From Methylophilales bacterium HTCC2181 (GTDB taxonomy: Bacteria; Pseudomonadota; Gammaproteobacteria; Burkholderiales; Methylophilaceae), in assembly GCA_000168995.1 (NCBI GenBank), contig AAUX01000001.1, forward strand, positions 1,116,001 to 1,180,000: a stretch of DNA of 64,000 nucleotides, read 5' to 3'. Made by a program: the position numbers and the translations under genes. Below, one piece after another: positions 35,878 to 50,367 of the stretch (its first letter is position 1; the number at the start of each line of letters is the position of its first letter). The notes under the pieces are model-generated. The model was not told where the DNA came from. It searched no databases and saw only the letters and a list, made by a program, of their open reading frames with translations.

Positions 35878-36823
35878 AATTCAATATTCGAATGATGGCA
35901 ACATAAAACATCTTCTGACTATAGAGGGGCTTCAGGAAGAACTTATTTATAAAATTTTTGATCTTGCTGAATCATTTCTAAATGTTGGAAATAGAGAAAT
36001 TAAAAATGTTCCGCTTTTGCGAGGCAAAACAATATGTAACCTCTTCTTTGAAAACAGTACGAGAACAAGAACAACATTTGAAATTGCGGCTAAAAGATTG
36101 TCTGCTGATGTAATAAACCTTGATATAGACTCTTCATCACAATCAAAGGGTGAGTCAATATTTGACACTGTAGATAACCTTATATCAATGGGAGCTGATA
36201 TTTTTGTCGTTAGGCATCCAGAGCCAGGAATGCCAGAGTTACTAGCTAAGCATGTTGGTGGCAATGCTCATATTATAAATGCGGGGGACGGTAATCACGC
36301 TCATCCAACCCAAGGATTGCTCGATACATTCACTATTAAAAAATACAAGAATAGATTTGATAATTTGTCTGTTGCAATCATTGGTGACATAAAACATTCA
36401 AGGGTAGCTAGATCTGAAATACATGCACTAACAACATTAGGTGTCCCTGACATTAGACTAATCGGTCCAACAGATCTCATGCCAACAGATATGAGTAAAA
36501 TCAACCTTAAGATATTTGAGAGTATGGATGATGGATTAAAAAATGTTGATGTAATCATGATGCTTAGAATTCAGAAAGAAAGAATGATTGGGGCTATTAT
36601 TCCTGAAGAAGGGGAATACTCGGAAAAGTATGGGTTACGAAAAAAACATCTATTATTAGCAAAAAAAGATGCAATCGTTATGCATCCAGGTCCAATGAAT
36701 AGGGGCATTGAGATAGATTCTGATGTTGCAGATGGTCAGCAATCGGTAATATTGTCACAAGTAACCTTTGGCATTGCTATCAGAATGGCTGTGATGTCGA
36801 TGTTGATTGGAAAAAATATTTAG
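35870..36823 (+). CDS. pyrB: Aspartate carbamoyltransferase catalytic subunit
   Basis: First committed step of pyrimidine synthesis, joining carbamoyl phosphate and aspartate. The 317 residues show the carbamoyl-phosphate motif [12 protein letters not shown] near residue 60, the [14 protein letters not shown] motif near residue 145, and [12 protein letters not shown] near the end. It belongs to the pyrR-pyrB type used without PyrI. The pyrC-like gene that often follows is missing; instead a new promoter for the repeat gene starts 17 bases after the stop. Confidence 0.96.
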
Positions 36824-36840
36824 CCAGTTGATTGAAGAAT

Positions 36841-36849
36841 TGTTATAAT
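36841..36849 (+). promoter_or_regulatory. Extended -10 promoter of the KPAAK repeat gene
   Basis: TGTTATAAT combines a TGn element with the exact consensus TATAAT (36844-36849). The start would be near 36856, followed by AAGGA at 36872-36876 six bases before the ATG at 36883. No -35 stands out. With the downstream terminator this makes the repeat gene a self-contained, probably well-expressed unit. Confidence 0.65.
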
Positions 36850-36882
36850 CGCAAGGATCTTCCAATTACTTAAGGATAAAAT

Positions 36883-37239
36883 ATGCTTGAAAAATTACTA
36901 AACGCCCTATTTGGAAAATCATCGCCAGAGAAACCAGCAGCTAAGAAACCAGCAGCTAAGAAACCAGCAGCTAAGAAACCAGCAGCTAAGAAACCAGCAG
37001 CTAAGAAACCAGCAGCTAAGAAACCAGCAGCTAAGAAACCAGCAGCTAAGAAACCAGCAGCTAAGAAACCAGCAGCTAAGAAACCAGCAGCTAAGAAACC
37101 AGCAGCTAAGAAACCAGCAGCTAAGAAACCAGCAGCTAAGAAACCAGCAGCTAAGAAACCAGCAGCTAAGAAACCAGCAGCTAAGAAACCAGCAGCTAAG
37201 AAACCAGCAGCTAAGAAACCAGCAGCTAAGAAAAAATAA
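36883..37239 (+). CDS. (KPAAK)20 repeat protein, histone-H1-tail-like
   Basis: 118-residue protein: a 16-residue start ([16 protein letters not shown]), then twenty KPAAK units and a final KK, so about 40% lysine. Lysine/alanine/proline tails of this kind occur in histone H1-like and AlgP/HctB-type bacterial proteins that bind DNA or polyphosphate; no globular domain is present. Residues 2, 5, 6, 9 and 10 of the start are Leu/Phe, giving a short amphipathic helix. It has a consensus extended -10, a good Shine-Dalgarno and a strong terminator, so it is monocistronic. The frame is real, because the other open frame over the repeats lacks a promoter-proximal start and Shine-Dalgarno. Function unproven. 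Confidence 0.8.
36931..37230 (+). repeat. Tandem repeat, 20 identical copies of a 15-bp unit
   Basis: The unit AAACCAGCAGCTAAG is repeated 20 times without a single base difference, including synonymous positions, over exactly 300 bases. Each unit is five codons (KPAAK), so copy-number changes keep the frame. Perfect identity points to recent expansion or ongoing homogenisation by slippage or recombination, and copy number is likely to differ between strains. Confidence 0.98.
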
Positions 37240-37261
37240 AGTTAAACGAAAATTGTATTTT

Positions 37262-37292
37262 AAAAAACCAGGCTACTGCTTGGTTTTTTTTT
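37262..37292 (+). terminator. Rho-independent terminator after the repeat gene
   Basis: AAAAAACCAGGC and GCTTGGTTTTTT pair around a short TACT loop, with one mismatch/bulge, and run into a long T tract. The T tract ends at about 37292, only three bases before the yggS ATG at 37296. Confidence 0.8.
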
Positions 37293-37295
37293 AAA

Positions 37296-37961
37296 ATGGA
37301 TAAAATCAAAAAAAATTTACTAATACTTAATCAGCAAATAGAGTCTATAAAAGCTTCTAATAGAACTGTTATTGTTGCGGTCAGTAAAAAACAGGATTCT
37401 TCTAAAATTATTGAGGCTATTAAATCCGGCCAAACTATTTTTGGTGAAAACTATGTCCAAGAAGCTCTAGAAAAACAAGAGATTCTTAAAAAATATAACC
37501 TTGAATGGCACTTCATTGGTCCGATCCAAAGCAATAAATGCAAAGCAATAGCAGAAAATTTTTCGTGGGTACAAACAGTTGATCGCCTAAAGACTGCCAT
37601 AAGAATTAATGATGCTAGAGAAGGTATGGAGCCCATTAATGTTTGTCTGCAAATAAATATAAGTAGTGAAGATTCAAAAGGTGGGGTTATGCTAGAGGCG
37701 GCTGAAGATTTGTTCAAAGAAGTGAGTAAGCTTAAAAACTTGAATATTAGAGGGTTGATGGCCATACCATCAAATACAAGTAATGCACACGTTTTAAAAA
37801 AAGAATTTCAGTTGTTAAAAAATGCTTATGATGAATTTAAAAAAACCTATCCAAGCATTGACACACTATCAATGGGTATGTCAAATGACTATTTAGAAGC
37901 CATTCAGCAAGGTGCTAATATGATCAGAGTTGGTAGTAATATTTTTGGAGAGAGAAAGTAA
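37296..37961 (+). CDS. yggS: PLP homeostasis protein, YggS/PLPBP family
   Basis: Non-catalytic PLP-binding TIM-barrel protein that maintains vitamin B6 balance. The 221 residues contain the PLP lysine in TVIVAVSKKQ near residue 30, GENYVQEAL, WHFIGPIQSNK, and the ending LSMGMSNDYLEAIQQGANMIRVG. The start codon lies three bases after the T tract of the preceding terminator, so there is no room for a Shine-Dalgarno outside the hairpin. Its stop overlaps the proC start by one base, the common yggS-proC pair. Confidence 0.95.
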   Translation: MDKIKKNLLILNQQIESIKASNRTVIVAVSKKQDSSKIIEAIKSGQTIFGENYVQEALEKQEILKKYNLEWHFIGPIQSNKCKAIAENFSWVQTVDRLKTAIRINDAREGMEPINVCLQINISSEDSKGGVMLEAAEDLFKEVSKLKNLNIRGLMAIPSNTSNAHVLKKEFQLLKNAYDEFKKTYPSIDTLSMGMSNDYLEAIQQGANMIRVGSNIFGERK

Positions 37962-38770
37962 TGATCAAACAAAAAAAAATTATTTTTGTCGGTGGCGGAA
38001 ATATGGCGAAAGCAATAATTTATGGTCTGATTAACAATGGTTATACACAGTCCAATCTTTTTGTTATTGATCCTTCAGCCGACCAACTTAATACAATTTC
38101 TAGTGACTATTCTGTCAACGTGTCTACATCTATGTGCCAACTAAATGGGGGTGAAATAATAATCTTAGCTACAAAACCCCATCATATTAAATCTATATGC
38201 GAGTCCATAAAAGATAATTTGAATCAACAACTTATAATTTCTATTGCAGCCGGTATTTCAATTAAAAATATAAGTAAATGGCTTGGTAACTATAAACATA
38301 TTGTAAGAACAATGCCAAACTTGGTAGCTCAAATACAGCGAAGTATGACTGCATTATGTGGTGCAGAGGAGCTTTCTCAAGACCATAAAAACGATGCACA
38401 AAGTATTTTTAATACCATCGGAAAAATATTATGGCTGAATGATGAGTTCAAAATTGATGCAGTGACCTCAATTTCAGGCAGCGGTCCCGCTTATGTGTTT
38501 TACTTTCTTGACTCTCTTATTGAGGCGGGAGAAAAAGTGGGTCTAAGCAGGGATGAAGCTGAATATCTTGCTCATGAGACACTCATAGGTTCAGCAATCA
38601 TGTCTGAATCTTATCTGAATGATCTTGGAACCCTCATAAATAACGTCTCGTCAAAGGGTGGAACGACTGAACAAGCAATAAGTGTGCTTAAGAATAAAGA
38701 CCTTAAAGAAATTATTGGTCTAGCAGTTGCTTCTGCATTTAAAAGAGCAATTGAAATTGGAAGCAAGTAA
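37961..38770 (+). CDS. proC: Pyrroline-5-carboxylate reductase
   Basis: NAD(P)H-dependent last step of proline synthesis. The 269 residues start with a Rossmann motif FVGGGNMAKAI near residue 10 and contain the C-terminal family signature DAVTSISGSGPAYVF and SSKGGTTEQAI. Its start overlaps yggS by one base, and mnmA begins directly after the stop, so yggS-proC-mnmA-nadC form one unit. Confidence 0.96.
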   Translation: MIKQKKIIFVGGGNMAKAIIYGLINNGYTQSNLFVIDPSADQLNTISSDYSVNVSTSMCQLNGGEIIILATKPHHIKSICESIKDNLNQQLIISIAAGISIKNISKWLGNYKHIVRTMPNLVAQIQRSMTALCGAEELSQDHKNDAQSIFNTIGKILWLNDEFKIDAVTSISGSGPAYVFYFLDSLIEAGEKVGLSRDEAEYLAHETLIGSAIMSESYLNDLGTLINNVSSKGGTTEQAISVLKNKDLKEIIGLAVASAFKRAIEIGSK

Positions 38771-39880
38771 GTGAAAGGGGAAAGTATAGTTGTTGGCTTA
38801 TCTGGTGGTGTAGATTCTGCTGTAACTGCTTGGTTGTTAAAAGATCAAGGTTACGATGTTACTGCTTTATTTATGAAGAACTGGGAAGATGATGACGAGG
38901 ATGAATACTGCTCAAGCAAACAAGATTTGCTTGATGCTATAGCAGTAGCAGAGAAAATTGGGGTTGATATTGAGGTAGTTAATTTTGCAAAAGAATATAA
39001 AGAAAAAGTTTTTTCCTTATTTATTGACGGTCTTAAAACTGGAATTACGCCCAACCCGGATATTTTATGTAACTCGGAAATTAAATTTGATGCATTTTTA
39101 AACCATGCACTTGCATTGGGGGCCGATAAAATAGCGACCGGCCATTACGCAAAGGTTATGGAAAGAGATGGTTTGTTTTATTTGCTTAAAGGAGATGATG
39201 GCTCCAAAGATCAAAGTTACTTTCTTCATCGGCTTAATCAAGACCAGCTATCAAAATCAGTCTTCCCTCTAGGTGGGCTGTTAAAAAAAGATGTGCGAGA
39301 AATTGCTAGAAAAAACTCTCTTCATATTCATGATAGAAAAGACTCTACAGGTATATGCTTTATAGGTGAAAGGCCTTTTGCAGAATTTATTGGGGGATAC
39401 ATAAACAAAGATCCGGGAAGTATAGTTAGCGCCGACGGAGGTGAAGTTCTAGGTACTCATGATGGCTTAAATTTTTACACAATAGGGCAAAGACAAGGCC
39501 TTAAAATAGGTGGAGTTCAAAAAGGTAATGGTAAGCCATGGTTTGTTATAAGCAAAGATTTTAAAAAGAACCAACTTGTTGTTGGGCAAGGCCATGATCA
39601 CCCTCTTCTTTTTAACGATGGTCTGATTGCTAAGGAAATGCATTGGATTGGAGAAAAGCTACCTAGAGAGAATTGGGTTTATGCCGCTAAAACAAGATAT
39701 AGGCAACCTGATGCTCCTTGTGAAATTGATGATATCAACGATGTCTCAGCCACAGTATTGTTTGGTCAAAAACAATGGGCTGTTACTCCCGGTCAGTCAA
39801 TTGTAATTTATGAAAGCAATGTATGTTTGGGTGGAGGATTTATTGAGCAAGCAATTAATATGAAAAATATTAAGCAATGA
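38771..39880 (+). CDS. mnmA: tRNA-specific 2-thiouridylase
   Basis: Installs the 2-thio group on U34 of tRNA-Lys, -Glu and -Gln using ATP and a sulfur relay. The 369 residues include the PP-loop [15 protein letters not shown] near residue 10, the nucleophile cysteine in [12 protein letters not shown] and the second catalytic cysteine in [12 protein letters not shown]. The GTG start at 38771 directly follows the proC stop and is supported by GGAAG about eight bases upstream. It overlaps nadC by four bases. Confidence 0.96.
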
Positions 39881-40713
39881 AGCTAAATAAAAACATTATC
39901 TTAGATGCTGTAAACAATAACGTAGTTTCTGCCATTGCTGAAGACATTAAAAATATAGATAAATCGTCAACACTTGTTCCCTCAAATATAAATGGAGTTG
40001 CTATTGTTAAAGCAAATCAAAAAGCTATTTTATGTGGCAAGCCATGGTTTGAGAAAAGCTTCAAATTAATTGACAAAGGAATCACGTGTCAATGGGGTAT
40101 TGAAGAAGGGCAAGAGTTTAAAAAAAATCAGATTATTTGTACACTTCATGGGAAATACAACAAATTGCTTGAAGGTGAAAGAATTGGTTTAAATTTCTTA
40201 CAAACTCTTTCTGCTACTGCAACTTCTACAAATATTCTGGTGAAAAAAATTGCACAGACATCCTCTGTTCTCCTGGACACAAGAAAAACAATTCCTGGAT
40301 TAAGAATTGCCCAAAAGTATGCGGTAAAAATTGGTGGGGGTCTCAATCAGAGACTTGGTCTATATGATGAAATTCTAATAAAAGAAAATCATATTAAATC
40401 GTTCGGATCCATACGAGCAGCCATAGAAAATGTAGGGAATAATAATTACCAAATAGAGGTTGAAACCATTGGTGAGTTAATAATTGCGCTAGAGTGTGGC
40501 GCTAAAAATATTTTGCTGGATAATTTTTCAATCCTCAAAGCAAAAGAAGCTACCTTAATCAACAAAGGAAAAGCAATGCTAGAGGTGTCAGGCAATATTA
40601 ATATTGATAATATTTTAGATTATGCCAAATTAGGCATACCGAGAATTTCTGTTGGGGCAATTACTAAAAATATTGAAGCGATTGATTTTTCAATGATTAT
40701 TGACACAATTTAG
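39877..40713 (+). CDS. nadC: Nicotinate-nucleotide pyrophosphorylase (quinolinate phosphoribosyltransferase)
   Basis: Converts quinolinate and PRPP to nicotinate mononucleotide in de novo NAD synthesis. The 278 residues include [17 protein letters not shown] near residue 105, [18 protein letters not shown] near residue 130 and the [11 protein letters not shown] loop. The barrel part ends with [14 protein letters not shown]. nadE is also in this window, so at least two steps of the NAD pathway are present. Its ATG overlaps the mnmA TGA. Confidence 0.96.
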
Positions 40714-40723
40714 CCAACTTCGC

Positions 40724-40752
40724 TTGAGCTAAGCGCTTCTAAAGGGTATCAT
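40724..40752 (+). promoter_or_regulatory. Sigma70-type promoter for ilvBHC with an inverted repeat
   Basis: TTGAGC (40724-40729) and TATCAT (40747-40752) are 17 bases apart, predicting a start near 40759 and a leader of about 20 bases before ilvB. The inverted repeat CGCTT-GAGCT-AAGCG (40721-40735) overlaps the -35 and could be an operator. The short leader leaves no room for a peptide attenuator. Confidence 0.6.
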
Positions 40753-40778
40753 ATTTGTTTAATTGAAACGCTCCTTGC

Positions 40779-42500
40779 ATGAAACCTGAAATTATAACTG
40801 GCGCTGAAATCGTCATTCGCTCACTTCAAAAAGAAAGTGTAGATTTTGTATTTGGCTACCCTGGTGGTGCCGTATTAAATATATATGACGCAATATTTAA
40901 GCAAAAACACTTTAAGCATGTCCTAGTCAGGCACGAGCAAGCTGCTGTGCATGCTGCAGATGCTTTTTCTCGAGCCACCGGAAAGGTTGGCGTTGCACTA
41001 GTAACCTCTGGCCCAGGGGCAACTAATGCTGTAACGGGTATAGCGACCGCTTATATGGATTCTATTCCAATGGTTATAATCAGTGGTCAAGTCCCTACGC
41101 ATGCAATCGGTGAGGATGCATTCCAGGAATGTGACACTGTTGGAATCACAAGACCTTGCGTAAAGCATAATTTCCTCGTAAAAGATGTTAACAAAATAGC
41201 AAGCACTATTAAAAAAGCATTTTATATTGCGGCTACAGGTCGCCCAGGTCCAGTCTTGGTTGATATTCCAAAAGATATTACAGCGGAGGAGGCTGAATTT
41301 GTTTATCCAGAAACAGTAGCCTTGCGATCCTACACTCCGGTAACCAAAGGGCATTTAGGTCAGATAAAGAAAGCCTTAGACTTATTAATCAAAGCAAAAA
41401 AGCCCATGGTTTACTCTGGTGGAGGAGTTGTTTTGGGCGACGCCGCAGAGTCTTTAAAAAAACTTATAGACACTCTTGGCTTTCCAGTAACCAATACGCT
41501 TATGGGGCTGGGTGGCTTCCCTGCCTCGGACGAAAAGTTTTTAGGCATGTTAGGCATGCATGGAACTTATGAAGCCAATATGGCCATGCAGGATTGTGAT
41601 GTTTTGATTGCAGTTGGTGCAAGGTTTGATGATAGAGTTATTGGGAATCCTGACCACTTCCTTTCTAAGCCTAGAAAAATTATTCATATTGATATAGACC
41701 CTGCTTCTATCTCCAAAAGAGTTAAAATTGATGTGCCGATAGTAGGTGATGTAAAAATCGTTTTAGACGATATGCTGGAGTGTTATGGCGAAGTAAAGAG
41801 TGATCATGATAAAAGCCGTGTAAAACCTTGGCTTGCCCAAATTAAAGAATGGGCTAGCAAAGATTGTATGGCTTTTGAAGATGATGGCTCTTTCATCAAA
41901 CCACAAAAGGTAATACAAACATTGCATAAAGTTACGAATGGGGATGCCTTTGTTACCTCCGATGTTGGTCAGCATCAAATGTGGGCAGCTCAGTACTACC
42001 CGTTTGATAAACCAAGGAGATGGATAAATTCAGGAGGTTTAGGGACTATGGGGGTAGGCCTACCATATGCTATGGGCTGTCAATTAGCATTTCCGGACTC
42101 GCAGGTTGCATGCGTTACCGGCGAAGCATCTATACAGATGTGTATTCAAGAGTTATCAACCTGCAAACAATTTAATTTACCGATAAAAATTATCAATCTT
42201 AACAATCGCTATATGGGTATGGTTAGGCAGTGGCAAGAGTTTTTTTATGGCAACAGATATGCTGAGTCTTATATGGACGCCCTTCCCGACTTTGTTAAAT
42301 TAGCCGAATCTTATGGGCATGTAGGAATGAAAATAGAAAAGTCAGCCGACATTGAACCTGCACTAAAAGAGGCTTTTAGTGAAAAACTAAAAGAAAAGCT
42401 GGTTTTCATGGACTTTATTACTGATCAGACTGAAAATGTATTTCCTATGGTACCAAATGGAAAAGGTATTTCTGAGATGATTCTTGCAGGAGATTCATAA
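40779..42500 (+). CDS. ilvB: Acetolactate synthase large subunit
   Basis: TPP-dependent first step of valine, leucine and isoleucine synthesis. The 573 residues include the catalytic-glutamate region VRHEQAAVHAADAFSRATGK near residue 50, the FAD-domain centre and the TPP/Mg motif, here GEASIQMCIQELSTCKQFNLP followed by the NNRYMGMVRQWQ loop. It has its own promoter. ilvH follows without a gap, so the two subunits are made together. Confidence 0.97.
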   Translation: MKPEIITGAEIVIRSLQKESVDFVFGYPGGAVLNIYDAIFKQKHFKHVLVRHEQAAVHAADAFSRATGKVGVALVTSGPGATNAVTGIATAYMDSIPMVIISGQVPTHAIGEDAFQECDTVGITRPCVKHNFLVKDVNKIASTIKKAFYIAATGRPGPVLVDIPKDITAEEAEFVYPETVALRSYTPVTKGHLGQIKKALDLLIKAKKPMVYSGGGVVLGDAAESLKKLIDTLGFPVTNTLMGLGGFPASDEKFLGMLGMHGTYEANMAMQDCDVLIAVGARFDDRVIGNPDHFLSKPRKIIHIDIDPASISKRVKIDVPIVGDVKIVLDDMLECYGEVKSDHDKSRVKPWLAQIKEWASKDCMAFEDDGSFIKPQKVIQTLHKVTNGDAFVTSDVGQHQMWAAQYYPFDKPRRWINSGGLGTMGVGLPYAMGCQLAFPDSQVACVTGEASIQMCIQELSTCKQFNLPIKIINLNNRYMGMVRQWQEFFYGNRYAESYMDALPDFVKLAESYGHVGMKIEKSADIEPALKEAFSEKLKEKLVFMDFITDQTENVFPMVPNGKGISEMILAGDS

Positions 42501-44014
<1,514 letters not shown>

Positions 44015-44653
44015 TTGGAAAAATCTACTTATCCTATTATAGCTAAAGAAGGATGGCCTTTTCTAGGCCTTTCTTTACTTGTAAGCCTAGTTCTGACTTT
44101 TATTCATAGTCCCCTGAGTTGGCCGGCATGGATTATCACATTATTTATATTACAATTTTTCCGCGATCCCCAAAGAGTCAAACCGTCAGGTAAGGATATA
44201 ATTTTATCTGCTGCGGACGGCAAGGTTATAGCAATAGAAAAAACCATAGACCCTTATCGAAATGAAGAAGCTATAAAGGTAAGTGTTTTTATGAATGTTT
44301 TTAATGTTCATTCAAATAAAAGTCCTGTTGACGGAAAGATACTTGAAAAATTTTACTATCCTGGAAAATTTCTAAATGCTGCTTTATCAAAAGCATCGTT
44401 AGAGAACGAAAGGTGTGCCATCGTCGTTAAAACTAAGGGTGGTAAAGTTATAACGTGCGTACAAATTGCTGGGTTAATTGCTAGAAGAATACTTTGTTAC
44501 AAAGAAAAGGGGCATAACATTTCTAGCGGGGAACGTTACGGTTTTATTAGGTTTGGTTCTCGAGTTGATCTCTATCTTCCCATTAACGCCACTATAAAAG
44601 TTGACCTTGGTCAAACCGTTAAAAATACAGAAACCATTATTGCTAAAATCTAA
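44015..44653 (+). CDS. psd: Phosphatidylserine decarboxylase (short form)
   Basis: Produces phosphatidylethanolamine from phosphatidylserine. This is the short (212-residue) form typical of betaproteobacteria, with an N-terminal hydrophobic stretch (residues 15-50) and the sequence FMNVFNVHSNKSPVDG near residue 95. The self-cleavage site is the FGSR motif near the end, where Ser becomes the pyruvoyl group. The start is TTG directly after ilvC. The usual following genes pssA and leuA are not here; instead a convergent nudix gene ends five bases away. Confidence 0.95.
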   Translation: MEKSTYPIIAKEGWPFLGLSLLVSLVLTFIHSPLSWPAWIITLFILQFFRDPQRVKPSGKDIILSAADGKVIAIEKTIDPYRNEEAIKVSVFMNVFNVHSNKSPVDGKILEKFYYPGKFLNAALSKASLENERCAIVVKTKGGKVITCVQIAGLIARRILCYKEKGHNISSGERYGFIRFGSRVDLYLPINATIKVDLGQTVKNTETIIAKI

Positions 44654-44658
44654 ATCGG

Positions 44659-45135
44659 CTAAGCTGAAGGAAGATACTCAAACAGTTCTTTTAAGGCCTG
44701 TTCATATACAGCTTTTTTGAAATCAATAATCTGATCTATAGGAGCCCAAAAACCAGCCCACTTCCAGTCATCAAACTCTGGCTTTTCTGTATTTTTTAAA
44801 AAAACATCGGAATCTTTTCCCGTGAAACGTAATAAAAACCAAATCTGCTTTTGCCCCCTATATCGATCGCGGCAATCTCTTCTAATCCAACTCTTTGGAA
44901 CGTCGTACTTTAGCCAGCCTTTTGTTCTGGCAAGTATTTCTACATTATGAGGATCAAGGCCGACCTCCTCTTTTAATTCTCTATACATAGCTTCCTCAGC
45001 ACTTTCTCCGTTATTAATACCCCCTTGAGGAAATTGCCAAGCTTCCTCACCGGTTCTTCTTGCCCACAAAACCTTTCGTTGGTCATTACAAATTACTATT
45101 CCAACATTTTCCCGGTAACCTTCTTTATCAATCAT
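44659..45135 (-). CDS. rppH: RNA pyrophosphohydrolase
   Basis: Nudix enzyme that removes pyrophosphate from mRNA 5' ends and triggers decay by RNase E. The nudix box GGINNGESAEEAMYRELKEEVGL begins near residue 37 (split here by my reading of the start), preceded by WQFPQGG. The frame extends to 45195, but the ATG at 45135 is preceded by AAGGAT eight bases upstream and gives the normal N-terminus MIDKEGYRENVGI, so 158 residues is preferred. It ends five bases from the convergent psd. Confidence 0.95.
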   Translation of the reverse strand: MIDKEGYRENVGIVICNDQRKVLWARRTGEEAWQFPQGGINNGESAEEAMYRELKEEVGLDPHNVEILARTKGWLKYDVPKSWIRRDCRDRYRGQKQIWFLLRFTGKDSDVFLKNTEKPEFDDWKWAGFWAPIDQIIDFKKAVYEQALKELFEYLPSA

Positions 45136-45186
45136 AATGTTATCCTTATATATATACGCATTTTTCCACAAAACACTAAAATTTAA

Positions 45187-45192
45187 TAGAAT
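45187..45192 (+). promoter_or_regulatory. Candidate -10 box abutting the YncE-like start
   Basis: TAGAAT lies five bases before the ATG at 45198, the spacing expected if transcription starts at the start codon. No Shine-Dalgarno is visible upstream of the ATG. A -35 element is not clear. Confidence 0.3.
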
Positions 45193-45197
45193 CAATT

Positions 45198-46163
45198 ATG
45201 AGCAAACAAAAAAAAATACTCTTACTTATATGTGCATTTGTTTTGGCAGGCTTGGTTTCAATTATTTTATTAAATAAAAGTCATAGCGTAAGTAAGGCAT
45301 ACATTACCAACCAAGGTGAGGACAGCGTCTCTGTGGTAAATCTAGATACATTAAAATTAGAAAAAAAAATTTCCGTAGGTAAGAGTCCTCTTGGTATCTC
45401 AATAGTTAACTCAAAAGATATTGCTGTAGTTGGTAACATTGAAAGTCAAAGCTTATCTATAATTGACCTCAAGGATAATGAAGTGATTAAAACCATTCCA
45501 ATTGATGCTACTCCCTTAGGTATTGTTGCAGACGCAGATGGTAGCAGAGTATTTATTACTAGTTGGTTTAAAAATCAAATTTTAGTTTTATCTACTCATG
45601 ATTTAACAATCTCAGAAGCCTTTAATGTAGGGGCCACACCATCCGGGATAACTTTTAACGAAAATTACAATCTAATTATTATTGCAAACCGTGATGAAAA
45701 TACGCTTGAAATGTACGATGCAGAAAGTTTTAAATTAAAAAAAGTGCTAAGGGTTGGCAGTCATCCTTACGGAGTCTCAACCAGAAATCATCTAGTATTT
45801 TCTGCTAACGTTTATGATGACAGTATTAGTATTGTAAATTTACAAAACTGGGAGCAAAAAACTGTAGCTGTAGGTATGCACCCTTATAGTGTTGCCGCAA
45901 ATCAAGATAGGCTTTTTGTGGCCAATTCTCAAGGTGACAATATAACTGTTATTAATCTAAATAACCTACAGGAAGTAAAGTTGCTTGATGCCGGTGAAAC
46001 ACCTGAAAATATAGCTATTGATGCTATAAACGATAAGCTGGTGAGCACAAATTGGGGATCTGACTCAGTAACAGTATTTGATTTAAACACTCTTGAGCAG
46101 ATAGCAGAAATAAAAACGGGGTTGCAGAGCCGTTCTTTTGGCCAATTTATTTACAGAAAATAG
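45198..46163 (+). CDS. YncE/YVTN-type beta-propeller protein, exported
   Basis: 321-residue protein with an N-terminal membrane anchor or signal (residues 6-25, lysines before it) and about seven propeller blades of the YVTN/YncE kind, each with a D-SVSVVNL-like strand and GKSPLGI-type turn. The blades repeat with HPYGV, HPYSV and GDNITVINL. YncE-like proteins bind DNA or act as scaffolds in the periplasm; in methylotrophs, propeller proteins of this kind occur near methanol-oxidation genes. The MxaD-like gene 72 bases downstream supports that setting. No enzymatic motif is visible. Confidence 0.75.
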   Translation: MSKQKKILLLICAFVLAGLVSIILLNKSHSVSKAYITNQGEDSVSVVNLDTLKLEKKISVGKSPLGISIVNSKDIAVVGNIESQSLSIIDLKDNEVIKTIPIDATPLGIVADADGSRVFITSWFKNQILVLSTHDLTISEAFNVGATPSGITFNENYNLIIIANRDENTLEMYDAESFKLKKVLRVGSHPYGVSTRNHLVFSANVYDDSISIVNLQNWEQKTVAVGMHPYSVAANQDRLFVANSQGDNITVINLNNLQEVKLLDAGETPENIAIDAINDKLVSTNWGSDSVTVFDLNTLEQIAEIKTGLQSRSFGQFIYRK

Positions 46164-46235
46164 CTTATTCTCATGAAATCAAATGTTGTTTGTAGTAAAA
46201 TTAAAAGTTAACGAATAAAAAAGGACTTATACCTA

Positions 46236-46757
46236 ATGAATAAATTCATACTATTTTTAGTAACTCTAATATTTTCAGCTTCAGTACTTGCTCACGGGCC
46301 GACGCCTCAAAAAGTTCAAGAATCAGTAACTGTTAATGTATCTCCAGAAAAAGCGTGGGAGCTTGTTAAGGATTTTGGAGCGATTAGTACATGGCTCTCT
46401 TCAGCAAAAGTGACTAAAATTGAAAAAAGAGGCGAAGATACGTACCGAATTATTACTCTGGAATCCGGAGATAAGTTAGATGAAAAACTCAGATCTACTG
46501 ACGAAGATTTAAAAAAAATAAGATGGGAAATTACTAAAGGCAATGTCCCCTTTACTGATTTTAATGCTTACATGATTGTATCAAAAGGATCTAATGACAA
46601 CGAATCAGTTATTCAGTGGACCGCGAGATTTTATCGTGTCTACAAACTAAATCCACCAATACCTGAAGGTCAAGATGATGCTACAGCTAAAGCTGCGGTT
46701 CAGGGTTTCGTAGACAGTGGTCTAGCAGGTCTAAAAAAAGTATTAGAATCGAAATAA
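46236..46757 (+). CDS. MxaD-like periplasmic SRPBCC protein
   Basis: 173-residue exported protein with a signal peptide (residues 1-20, ending SVLAHG) and an SRPBCC/polyketide-cyclase-like lipid-binding fold (VNVSPEKAWELVKDFGAISTW). This opening and the ending FVDSGLAGLKKVLESK match MxaD, a periplasmic protein that aids electron transfer from methanol dehydrogenase to cytochrome c. It is the strongest methylotrophy marker in the window, although no dehydrogenase gene is present here. AAGGAC precedes the start and a strong terminator follows. Confidence 0.78.
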   Translation: MNKFILFLVTLIFSASVLAHGPTPQKVQESVTVNVSPEKAWELVKDFGAISTWLSSAKVTKIEKRGEDTYRIITLESGDKLDEKLRSTDEDLKKIRWEITKGNVPFTDFNAYMIVSKGSNDNESVIQWTARFYRVYKLNPPIPEGQDDATAKAAVQGFVDSGLAGLKKVLESK

Positions 46758-46778
46758 TTTTCGGATAATCTATGGAGG

Positions 46779-46803
46779 GCGGATTTTTTAATCCGCTTTT
46801 TTT
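46779..46803 (+). terminator. Rho-independent terminator abutting the carboxylesterase start
   Basis: GCGGATT pairs with AATCCGC around a TTTT loop (46779-46796) and is followed by seven T residues ending at 46803. The next base begins the ATG of the carboxylesterase gene at 46804, so the hairpin occupies the whole space where a ribosome site would lie. Confidence 0.85.
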
Positions 46804-47418
46804 ATGCTTATTATAAACAAGCAAAAGAACCCAAGAATGTTGGTAGTCTGGTTGCATGGGTTGGGAGCGGACGGCAATGACTTTGCAGCTGTTGTGCAGG
46901 GGTTAGGTCTTTCTGATATAGAATTTATTTTACCGAATGCACCAATGATTCCCATCACCCTCAATCAAGGACTGGAAATGCGTGGGTGGTATGACATAGA
47001 ATCCCTTTCTTTTATGCGCCACGATATTGATGGGATGAATAAATCTATGGTTTATATAGAAAAAATTATCTCTGATAGGTTAATAAATAGCATAAATTCC
47101 TTAAAAATATGTTTGGTTGGTTTTTCTCAAGGCGCGGTATTATCATTATATATTGCCGCAAATAGCTCAACAAAATTAAATGGTGTTATTGCGTTATCGG
47201 GCTACCTTCCAGAAAAAAATGTAGTTAAGGCGTCATCTAAAATGCCCATTCTTGCTATTCATGGGCAGCATGATGATATTATAAATATAAATTATGCACA
47301 GAAAAGTTTTTGTGACTTAATGCCTATGGAGCACTTTAATCTTTTAACTTTCCCTATGGGTCATGAGGTCATTGATGAAGAAATTATGCATATCAAACAA
47401 TTTTTACAGAGAGCATAG
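46804..47418 (+). CDS. Carboxylesterase / phospholipase family alpha-beta hydrolase
   Basis: 204-residue alpha/beta hydrolase of the bacterial carboxylesterase (EstB/YpfH-like) family. The family opening VVWLHGLGADGNDF lies near residue 14, the nucleophile serine is in LVGFSQGAV near residue 105, and Asp and His follow in HGQHDDI and MGHEVID. The ATG is directly after the terminator T tract; the next in-frame ATG (46837) would remove the first strand of the fold. Two bases separate it from xseB. Confidence 0.9.
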   Translation: MLIINKQKNPRMLVVWLHGLGADGNDFAAVVQGLGLSDIEFILPNAPMIPITLNQGLEMRGWYDIESLSFMRHDIDGMNKSMVYIEKIISDRLINSINSLKICLVGFSQGAVLSLYIAANSSTKLNGVIALSGYLPEKNVVKASSKMPILAIHGQHDDIININYAQKSFCDLMPMEHFNLLTFPMGHEVIDEEIMHIKQFLQRA

Positions 47419-47420
47419 CT

Positions 47421-47642
47421 ATGAAAGAAAAAGGACTAAGTATTGAGAAGGTTTTAAAAGAGCTTGAATCAATAGTCAACAAAATGGAGGAAGACAACCT
47501 TAATCTAGAGGACTCTTTATCCTCATACGAAAAAGGAATTTCCTTGGTAAAACTAGCTCAAGAAAACCTAAAAAAAATAGAACAGCGGGTGCAAATACTT
47601 TCTAAAAACGATGAGATAATAGAATTTAACCCTGATGACTAA
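47421..47642 (+). CDS. xseB: Exodeoxyribonuclease VII small subunit
   Basis: 73-residue coiled-coil subunit that surrounds the XseA filament in exonuclease VII. It contains the conserved pattern LKELESIVNKMEEDNLNLEDSL... followed by YEKGISLVKLAQENLKKIEQRV (each seen in part). It lies just before ispA and dxs, with an eight-base overlap with ispA, the order typical of proteobacteria. Its partner xseA is at the left edge of the window. Confidence 0.95.
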   Translation: MKEKGLSIEKVLKELESIVNKMEEDNLNLEDSLSSYEKGISLVKLAQENLKKIEQRVQILSKNDEIIEFNPDD

Positions 47643-48525
47643 AATCGCTGATGACATTTGGATATCACATCACCAAAAAAAAATAAATCTTGAGCTTAGT
47701 CATTTTTTTAAAGAAATAGATCAATCCCTGTTAAAAAATGTCTGTGAGTATGCGGTTCTTAACGGTGGCAAGCGATTGAGATCCCTCCTGATATATGCTA
47801 TTAGCAATTATAGTGATGGGTATGATACTCATTTTAATTGTCTTGCCTTAGCTGTAGAAATGATTCATGCATATTCATTGGTGCACGATGATCTTCCATC
47901 AATGGATGATGATGAGCTTAGAAGGGGAAAGCCTTCATGTCATATAAAGTATGATGAAGCTCAAGCCATTTTAGGTGGCGACGCACTTCAATCTCTTGCC
48001 TTTGAACTGCTTTCCTCGGATAAATTTAATGTACAGGATAAGGTAAAAATAAAAGTACTTAATATGTTGTCACAGTCGATTGGTTTGCATGGAATGGCTT
48101 TAGGCCAATCTATAGATATAGACAGCGCAAATAAAGAATTAAATTTAAAATCATTAGATCATTTACAGGCACTAAAAACCGGCGCATTAATAGAAGCTTC
48201 GTGTGTTATGTCTTATGTCATCTCAGATAAATACAATCAGAAACATGAAAAAGATATAGCCTCAATTGGAAAATTAATAGGTAGTATTTATCAAATTACG
48301 GATGATATTTTGGACTTTGAATCGGATACAAATACATTGGGGAAAACTATTGGTAAAGATGCTAAAGATAAAAAAGCAACCTACATAACATTGATGGGTG
48401 TTACAGAAGCTAAAAAAATTAAAGCTCTATTATTTTCTACCTTACGCAAAGAAATAGAGCAATTTCCAAGCGACCTAACAGTATTAAACAATCTCGTAAG
48501 CTACATATATCAAAGAAATTACTAA
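47635..48525 (+). CDS. ispA: Farnesyl diphosphate synthase
   Basis: Condenses isopentenyl diphosphate with dimethylallyl and geranyl diphosphates to give farnesyl diphosphate. The 296 residues show the first aspartate-rich motif HDDLPSMDDDELRRGKPS near residue 85 and the second DDILDFESD near residue 225, with NGGKRLR near residue 42. It overlaps xseB by eight bases. dxs begins immediately after the stop, linking the start and the end of precursor synthesis. Confidence 0.95.
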   Translation: MTKIADDIWISHHQKKINLELSHFFKEIDQSLLKNVCEYAVLNGGKRLRSLLIYAISNYSDGYDTHFNCLALAVEMIHAYSLVHDDLPSMDDDELRRGKPSCHIKYDEAQAILGGDALQSLAFELLSSDKFNVQDKVKIKVLNMLSQSIGLHGMALGQSIDIDSANKELNLKSLDHLQALKTGALIEASCVMSYVISDKYNQKHEKDIASIGKLIGSIYQITDDILDFESDTNTLGKTIGKDAKDKKATYITLMGVTEAKKIKALLFSTLRKEIEQFPSDLTVLNNLVSYIYQRNY

Positions 48526-50367
48526 ATGGCCATATTAGAAAAAATCAACTATCCCAAAGATCTAAAAAACTTATCAAGAGACGAACTTAAACTATTGGCA
48601 GATGAGTTAAGAGAATTCGTCATTGAAAGCGTATCCAAGACTGGAGGGCATTTATCTTCAAATCTCGGGGTTATTGAATTAACAGTAGCATTGCATTATG
48701 TCTATGATGCTCCTAAAGATAAACTGGTTTGGGATGTTGGGCACCAAACCTATGCACACAAGATAATAACTGGAAGAAAGCATGAAATGCACACACTGAG
48801 AAGAAAAAATGGTCTCTCAGGCTTCCCAAGAAGATCTGAGAGTATGTATGATGAATTTGGTACCGGCCACTCCAGTACGTCAATATCTGCAGCATTAGGA
48901 ATGGCAGAGGCCTTAAGGAAAAGAAAATCAAAAAATAAGGCGATTGCCATTATTGGGGATGGCGCAATGACTGCTGGCATGGCATTTGAGGGACTCAATC
49001 ACTCAGGAAGCACTGATAATAATATTTTAGTTATTCTCAACGATAATGATATGTCTATATCAAAAAATGTGGGTGCACTAAACAACTATCTAGCCAAGCT
49101 TCTTTCAGGAAGAGTTTATGATGGATTAAAAAGATCAGGCAAAGCTGTATTTTCTAAGGTACCTCCAATACTTGAATTAGCAAGAAAAACCGAGGAGCAT
49201 ATGAAGGGAATGGTTATACCCGGGACGCTTTTTGAGGAGTTTGGTTTTAATTATATCGGTCCTATTGACGGGCATGATCTTGATGTCCTAATAGACACAC
49301 TTGAAAATATCAAAAAAATTGATGGGCCTCAATTTCTTCATGTTGCAACGAAGAAAGGCTTTGGCTATGCCCCCGCCCAAGATGATCCCAACAAATTTCA
49401 TGGTGTAGGAAAATTCAATCCAGAGGATGGATTATCTAAAGACTCCAATAAGTCACTAACCTATACACAGGTTTTTTCTTTATGGTTAATGGACGCAGCA
49501 AAAAAAAATATGCACCTGTGTGCAATAACACCAGCAATGTCAGACGGGTCAGGCCTGAATGCATTTGCAAAAAAATATCCATCTAGATATTATGATGTGG
49601 GAATTGCAGAGCAGCACGCTCTCACTTTTGCAGCTGGCTTGGCATTATCAGGAAACAAGCCTGTAGTAGCGATATACTCCACTTTTATGCAGAGAGCTTA
49701 CGATCAACTCATTCATGATATTGCCATTCAGAATATACCTATGTTATTTGCTATTGATCGTGCAGGTTTGGTAGGTGCAGATGGGGCAACGCATTCTGGT
49801 AACTTCGATATATCATTCATGCGATGTATCCCTAATTTGATTCTGATGGCACCATCTAACGAATCTGAGTGCTTTCACATGCTCTCGTTTGGATATAAAT
49901 ATAATGGAGTGTGCGCAGTTAGGTATCCCAGAGGAAATAGCCCTGGTAGCTCGATAGAGCTTTTAAATGATCCTATAAGAATAGGCTGTGCAAATAAAGT
50001 TCGAACAGGTAAAAAGGTGGCTATCCTCGCTTTTGGTCCCATTATAGAAGTCTGTCGTGAAGTTGCTGAAGAAATTAATGCATCCCTAATTGATATGAGA
50101 TTTATTAAACCAATTGACAAAAAAATGATCAAACAAGTATGTAAAGATCATGAATTGATAGTTTCCGTAGAAGAAAATGCAATTACTGGTGGCGCGGGAT
50201 CTTCTGTTCTTGAGGTTATAAGTGAGTCGAACCTTTTGACCAAGACACTTGTACTGGGCATTCCTGATCAGTTTTTCGAGCACGCCTCGCAGCAAGAAGT
50301 TCTAAAGGCATGTGGCCTTGATAAGCAAAGCATAAAACGTAAAATTGTTAAACAACTTAATGGATGA
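48526..50367 (+). CDS. dxs: 1-deoxy-D-xylulose-5-phosphate synthase
   Basis: TPP-dependent condensation of pyruvate and glyceraldehyde 3-phosphate, the first step of the MEP isoprenoid pathway. The 613 residues show GGHLSSNLGVIELTVALH near residue 40, DVGHQTYAHKI, the TPP motif GDGAMTAGMAFEGLNH near residue 146 and the transketolase-type YDVGIAEQHALTFAAGLA near residue 355. It sits directly after ispA; its stop codon overlaps a possible -10 box for folE2. Confidence 0.97.
   Translation: MAILEKINYPKDLKNLSRDELKLLADELREFVIESVSKTGGHLSSNLGVIELTVALHYVYDAPKDKLVWDVGHQTYAHKIITGRKHEMHTLRRKNGLSGFPRRSESMYDEFGTGHSSTSISAALGMAEALRKRKSKNKAIAIIGDGAMTAGMAFEGLNHSGSTDNNILVILNDNDMSISKNVGALNNYLAKLLSGRVYDGLKRSGKAVFSKVPPILELARKTEEHMKGMVIPGTLFEEFGFNYIGPIDGHDLDVLIDTLENIKKIDGPQFLHVATKKGFGYAPAQDDPNKFHGVGKFNPEDGLSKDSNKSLTYTQVFSLWLMDAAKKNMHLCAITPAMSDGSGLNAFAKKYPSRYYDVGIAEQHALTFAAGLALSGNKPVVAIYSTFMQRAYDQLIHDIAIQNIPMLFAIDRAGLVGADGATHSGNFDISFMRCIPNLILMAPSNESECFHMLSFGYKYNGVCAVRYPRGNSPGSSIELLNDPIRIGCANKVRTGKKVAILAFGPIIEVCREVAEEINASLIDMRFIKPIDKKMIKQVCKDHELIVSVEENAITGGAGSSVLEVISESNLLTKTLVLGIPDQFFEHASQQEVLKACGLDKQSIKRKIVKQLNG

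Follow-up and report, generated by a model that had tools for sequence, protein, structure and literature searches.

A terminator-like hairpin abutting the start codon of a carboxylesterase gene in Methylophilales bacterium HTCC2181 and its relatives

Results

Genes at the locus

The window, i.e. the whole stretch of DNA that was analysed, comprises 64,000 nucleotides of contig AAUX01000001.1 from Methylophilales bacterium HTCC2181 (positions 1,116,001 to 1,180,000). On its forward strand an ORF at 46236-46757 codes for a 173 aa SRPBCC protein with a Polyketide_cyc2 domain (PF10604). It is followed on the same strand by a carboxylesterase ORF of 204 aa (46804-47418; PF02230, supported by relatives), by xseB for the small subunit of exonuclease VII (47421-47642; PF02609), by a gene for an ispA-type polyprenyl synthetase (47635-48525; PF00348) and by dxs (48526-50367; NCBIfam profile match TIGR00204). 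The gaps within carboxylesterase-xseB-ispA-dxs are 2, -8 and 0 nt. An earlier note on this DNA had called the SRPBCC gene mxaD and had assigned it to methanol oxidation. This label was not confirmed: Pfam reported Polyketide_cyc2, NCBIfam returned no MxaD name, and 0.8 Mb of contig coordinates separate the SRPBCC gene from the best match to a PQQ alcohol dehydrogenase (599.5 bits; the two matches are G000:C3:348128-349798 and 220374-222002). The second, weaker match is on the opposite strand and consists of two pieces of one open frame.

Anatomy of the junction

A core terminator hairpin, GCGGAT-TTTTTA-ATCCGC (46779-46796, forward strand), starts 21 nt after the end of the upstream ORF at 46757. 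It is followed by a T7 tract (46797-46803), the last base of which stands directly 5' of the ATG at 46804. Hairpin, T7 and ATG are contiguous with 0 nt between T tract and start codon. Thus the abutment claimed by the earlier note, with the T tract ending at 46803 and the ATG at 46804, is real; its coordinates can be read directly and the junction is kept in relatives. The foot of the hairpin is formed by GGAGG (46774-46778), which is predicted to make weak G-U and A-U pairs with the T tract or, alternatively, might be the Shine-Dalgarno sequence of a split ribosome-binding site. The segment 46779-46803 has the hallmark of an intrinsic terminator, a stable GC-rich hairpin immediately 5' of a T tract. 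Folding of the 34-nt element gave -13.8 kcal/mol and a z-score of -4.39, with 0 of 200 shuffles being as stable. The element also ranked first among the 16 sites of a terminator scan covering 38-56 kb of the window. Because shuffled sequences yielded 12.8 ± 3.7 sites, the scan alone proves nothing and the comparison with relatives decides. There were no Rfam matches at gathering score in the window from 36000 to 50000.

The inverted repeat GCGGAT-N2-14-ATCCGC occurs at a single place in the 1.30 Mb genome (1,304,428 bases on three contigs), so that the stem was rejected as a repeated genomic signal, e.g. an uptake sequence. The heptamer AGCGGAT as an uptake-type repeat was likewise dismissed, since the window shows no enrichment of it (2 occurrences vs. 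4.34 expected).

No in-frame ATG, GTG or TTG is located between the preceding stop codon and ATG 46804, and the carboxylesterase protein is conserved in relatives starting at the methionine of this codon. ATG 46804 is therefore very likely the true start. A later start at the in-frame ATG 33 nt downstream was discarded because it would drop conserved residues. A frame of 14 codons (46772-46816; ATG GAG GGC ... TAA) extends across the hairpin and over the carboxylesterase start in a different reading frame. It is probably due to chance, since by eye its counterpart in genome G025 stops after four codons.

Conservation in the same and in the sister genus

The genus of the source genome (g1) is represented by 31 genomes, 30 of which had a match to the carboxylesterase gene and one of which had none. 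In the 30 upstream regions that were read, including those of G015 and G027, a hairpin with a T tract at the ATG is present in 18, while 12 are without such a hairpin. The pattern search alone had found it in 17 of 31 genomes; G015 was added from reading of the locus. The distance from T run to ATG is 0 nt in 17 of the 18 hairpin loci, a single A intervening in G011, and the T run of G018 is broken by an A. Full-length identity of the carboxylesterases to that of the window is 47-60% among these 18 genomes, with 76% in G003; three genomes yielded only fragments. In the sister genus g15, all 15 loci that were read (16 genomes; G086 was without a match) have the order GCAGAA...TTCTGC, T7, ATTT or ATTC and ATG, i.e. 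the stem and T tract are 4 nt from the start codon.

Two of ten stem pairs have changed on both sides between g1 and g15, the compensatory change expected of an intrinsic terminator. A joint stem alignment of 33 rows, 22 of them distinct, was examined, in which the row of G025 was retained although shifted by one column. Standard pairs made up 95% of the pair cells, as compared to 39-71% when the partner was slid by 1-3 columns. Cells changed on both sides numbered 12 vs. 3.5 ± 1.3 in shuffles, and the covariation score was reached by 0 of 500 shuffles. On the other hand, two of the five measures of the pair count did not exceed the shuffles: the two pairs changed on both sides and the eight further pair types were reached by 415 and 481 of 500, respectively. 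All double changes fall into two pairs, and they represent a single event that separates the two genera. As judged from the relatives, the junction is real and inherited, and it is this conservation, not the existence of a second case, that provides the real evidence against an accident.

Abutting terminators are not enriched

The earlier note had argued that the carboxylesterase junction was a second independent case of the same arrangement and so less likely to be an accident. Its first case is evidently the ATG of yggS at 37296, located 3 nt past a T9 tract; the comparison junction at 37262-37298 on the forward strand, defined by sequence and relatives, consists of a terminator AACCAGGC...GCTTGGTT, T9, AAA and ATG. 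Upstream of yggS, at 36883-37239 of the window, a histone H1-like protein is encoded that consists almost entirely of KPAAK repeats; it scored 49.6 bits with the NCBIfam model hist_H1_lk_Burk, i.e. under the cut-off of 80.

The genome-wide search for enrichment that the note had suggested was run on 464 kb (36% of the genome) with 433 ORFs of at least 80 aa, and no enrichment was found. Candidate terminator-start junctions numbered 10 at a threshold of -6 kcal/mol and two at -10 kcal/mol, namely 37296 and 46804. Among 323 co-directional gene pairs, 17 had a terminator that folds at -8 kcal/mol or lower. The spacings from terminator to start codon in these pairs were 0, 12, 18, 26, 29, 36, 38, 53 nt and higher values, without any clustering at zero. 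The yggS junction with its 3 nt is absent from this count because a spurious ORF overlaps yggS. TTTTTATG occurred 276 times vs. 300 times for its reversal. T in six of the seven bases before the ATG was seen in 5 of 377 ORFs vs. 1 in a control window, numbers too small to build on. With two junctions among 433 ORFs, no accumulation of zero spacings and TTTTTATG not commoner than its reversal, the argument from a second case fails. As far as enrichment is concerned, this is the outcome that the note itself had listed first as a refutation. Abutting terminators are not a genome-wide device or a general rule here. In other Methylophilaceae (e.g. G098, G099, G103 and G104) CCGCTTTTTTTATG recurs 3' of hairpins, in some cases on the two strands of a single hairpin; the ATGs concerned are candidate starts.

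The yggS junction served as a control for the interpretation of conservation. Both its stem and its T run could be identified in 24 of 25 g1 loci, the sequence of G012 being masked there, and the T run is 0-12 nt from an in-frame yggS ATG in 23 of 25. In G020 the in-frame ATG follows after 144 nt; there is an ATG at 10 nt, but in a different frame. At locus L203 (G024) a T8 run is immediately 5' of the yggS ATG, a zero spacing at a second locus. Because the conserved yggS stem is close to its ATG as well, neither stem conservation nor closeness is specific to the carboxylesterase junction, and stem conservation was rejected as proof of a special function there. In the loci compared, what is specific to the carboxylesterase is the zero distance, which is nearly constant. 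This near-constant spacing could be due either to selection or to compaction having reached its limit.

A longer spacer with a putative promoter in a less reduced genus

In g16, a less reduced genus (the genome of G103 has 1,754,988 bases), a terminator follows the same upstream gene, and the ATG is reached after a further 61, 64, 65, 82 and 83 nt in G104, G100, G103, G102 and G101, respectively. The first ATG comes after only 28 nt in G097 of this genus and after 26 nt in G180 of another genus. Of the ten genomes listed for g16, eight were read, and seven of these carry the box TGYNAAAAT, which begins at -39 to -43; it is missing in G097 and in G180. In an alignment the box is conspicuous within an otherwise variable spacer (the row of G100, aligned from an ATG further downstream, is out of register). 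By consensus we take TGYNAAAAT to be an extended -10 promoter, and it is probably that of the carboxylesterase operon. It may also be some other motif, its carriers being related genomes. The 4 kb fetched from G098 and from G099 yielded no homologue of the upstream gene, and the nearest long frames there run along the opposite strand. The box is present in both, which indicates that it travels with the carboxylesterase.

In the compact genera the box was found in none of 30 g1 and none of 15 g15 loci within 120 nt before the start, the starts of hairpin-less loci having been assigned by a script. A mere upstream shift of the box within these 120 nt was thereby rejected. In other sampled genera (L156, L157, L159-L167) no conserved arrangement 5' of the carboxylesterase was apparent by eye. 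Median gaps between co-directional genes, determined in samples, were 7 nt in the source genome, 9 in G011, 6 in G094, 18.5 in G103 and 49 nt in G061.

Loss of the hairpin and start codons

A tree of 54 rows was built from four proteins by a quick method, which flagged six long end branches and warned of the joining of outgroup and g1. On this tree the hairpin-less g1 loci form two separate clades of nine and three genomes, and hairpin state and ATG state change twice each. The hairpin-bearing genes start with ATG in 18 of 18 cases. The hairpin-less starts, as assigned here, are TTG in 10 of 12, GTG in one and ATG in one (G012, the deepest of its clade). The GTG is that of G024 and is less sure as a start, because there is also an ATG 33 nt past the start of the match. 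The contrast comprises two independent events (sign test, p 0.5), and with only two the association with TTG or GTG is a pattern to test and not a result. The carboxylesterase start of G012 (L093) has no T tract and shows an inverted repeat ATGAATCAT...ATGATTCAT of -11.1 kcal/mol with the start codon in the 3' arm; from the predicted fold, this is a possible other way to hide a start.

Discussion

With moderate confidence we favor the view that the element is the ordinary Rho-independent terminator of the SRPBCC gene, which streamlining would have pushed against the next ORF, so that the operon would now be fed by read-through. What was observed in support is the anatomy of the junction, its conservation, the compensatory stem change, the spacer lengths and the absence of the box. 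The state resembling the ancestral one would be that of g16, with 61-83 nt after the terminator and probably a promoter of the operon's own. Streamlining would have removed the spacer, and probably the operon promoter too, leaving 4 nt and then 0 nt in the compact lineages. RNA polymerase that passes the terminator, coming from the promoter of the upstream gene or from a putative one inside that gene, would feed carboxylesterase-xseB-ispA-dxs. The terminator would then set the ratio of the upstream gene to the operon. From the observations above we infer the direction of change, the identity of the promoter, the dependence on read-through and its sensitivity to ribosomes. Methylophilaceae have been described as undergoing genome streamlining with shorter spacers (PMC6794327). 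The locus is similar in that spacers shorten with genome size and an intermediate genus is present. It differs in that the passages concerned do not cover this junction, and its main text contains 0 instances of "mxaD".

The T tract and the ATG leave no space between them, so that operon transcripts started upstream must cross the hairpin. Since there is no room for a promoter before the ATG and the putative promoter of the g16 type is missing, read-through coupling of the operon, as suggested in the earlier note, is plausible and in our view likely; the proposed tie to methanol oxidation did not hold up. Read-through may also depend on translation of the upstream gene and would be expected to rise when that gene is actively translated, because the core stem is only 13-22 nt past its stop codon (16 measured g1 hairpin loci; 20 nt in 15 of 15 g15 loci). 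According to the relevant passages of PMC4824070, a terminator a few bp past a stop codon is almost silent in E. coli and reaches its maximum beyond about 30 bp; in two series, distances of 17 and 18 bp gave efficiencies of about 0.12 and 0.8, respectively. The analogy is that 13-22 nt falls into this range of steep change for ribosome-repressed terminators. Yet those data refer to lambda tR2 measured in E. coli, a different clade.

The element shares with intrinsic terminators the GC-rich stem, the T tract, the position past a stop codon and the compensatory stem change in relatives, but here zero bases precede the next start codon. It also resembles the internal operon terminators that set stoichiometry, as portrayed in parts of PMC9045158 and PMC10450193, by lying between co-directional genes with no room (0 nt) for a promoter before the next ORF and by a downstream gene that would be fed by read-through. 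In contrast to the lower U content and the longer GC-rich stems described for such terminators in PMC9045158, the junction has an uninterrupted T7 and a short core stem of 6 bp. Furthermore, the flanking functions look unrelated. Among the papers listed by a literature search, with most subscription journals outside its coverage, no title or opening of an abstract reports a terminator that abuts a start codon across a clade.

A rather unlikely alternative places the operon promoter within the upstream ORF or immediately 3' of it, the hairpin and T7 being mainly a structured 5' leader or a signal for the end or decay of the mRNA with only incidental termination. Promoter-like sites do occur throughout the scan, e.g. 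at 46173-46201, 5' of the upstream ORF, and at 46973-47002, inside the carboxylesterase ORF; a promoter within the latter is possible and counts against the favored read-through from upstream. However, the 53 sites compare with 59.5 ± 7.6 in shuffles, which makes the promoter scan uninformative. TGYNAAAAT is missing from the 120 nt 5' of the start codon in all 30 g1 loci, and a transcript from such a promoter would still cross the hairpin and the T tract.

We give little credence to the idea that the hairpin is a neutral residue of spacer deletion which hardly acts, with the operon running straight on from the upstream gene. The retention of the gene order in the two g1 clades that lost the hairpin would agree with it, but core stem and T tract have been kept at 47-60% protein identity (76% in G003), and the stem has changed in a compensatory manner between genera.

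It is equally doubtful that the hairpin is looped out between GGAGG and AUG as part of a split ribosome-binding site, which would shorten the spacing from 25 to 7 nt and make the read-through mRNA translatable. The order GGAGG, 18-nt hairpin, U7 and AUG is present, with a Shine-Dalgarno sequence at workable looped-out spacing both here and in G003. Passages of PMC3014915 describe precedents in genes 38 and 25 of phage T4, with spacings reduced from 22 to 5 nt and from 27 to 11 nt. Shine-Dalgarno-like tetramers precede 118 of 377 ATG ORFs vs. 53 in the control window, thus such sequences are used in this genome. Unlike in the T4 sites, the hairpin here is a terminator and the Shine-Dalgarno sequence is not conserved across the clade: a tetramer is found in 10 of the 18 g1 hairpin loci, five of which qualify only if the first stem base is included, and in 0 of 15 g15 loci. 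In addition, the predicted fold pairs GGAGG with the T tract. In a few lineages the arrangement of these elements makes a split site possible.

As improbable as a split site is, to our mind, an element with both functions, in which the hairpin would terminate and would form a split site in the read-through RNA, tuning the gene pair without a spacer, while TTG or GTG starts would lower the output where the hairpin was lost.

Returning to the favored reading, the relatives provide a series: a long spacer with a putative promoter, 4 nt, 0 nt, and loss of the terminator. This series makes it testable whether compact genomes swap promoters for read-through and whether a weak start codon substitutes for a lost terminator. 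The element itself is probably an ordinary terminator in an unusual place, and the comparison of genera suggests a way in which streamlining could join an isoprenoid operon (ispA, dxs) to the adjacent gene across a terminator.
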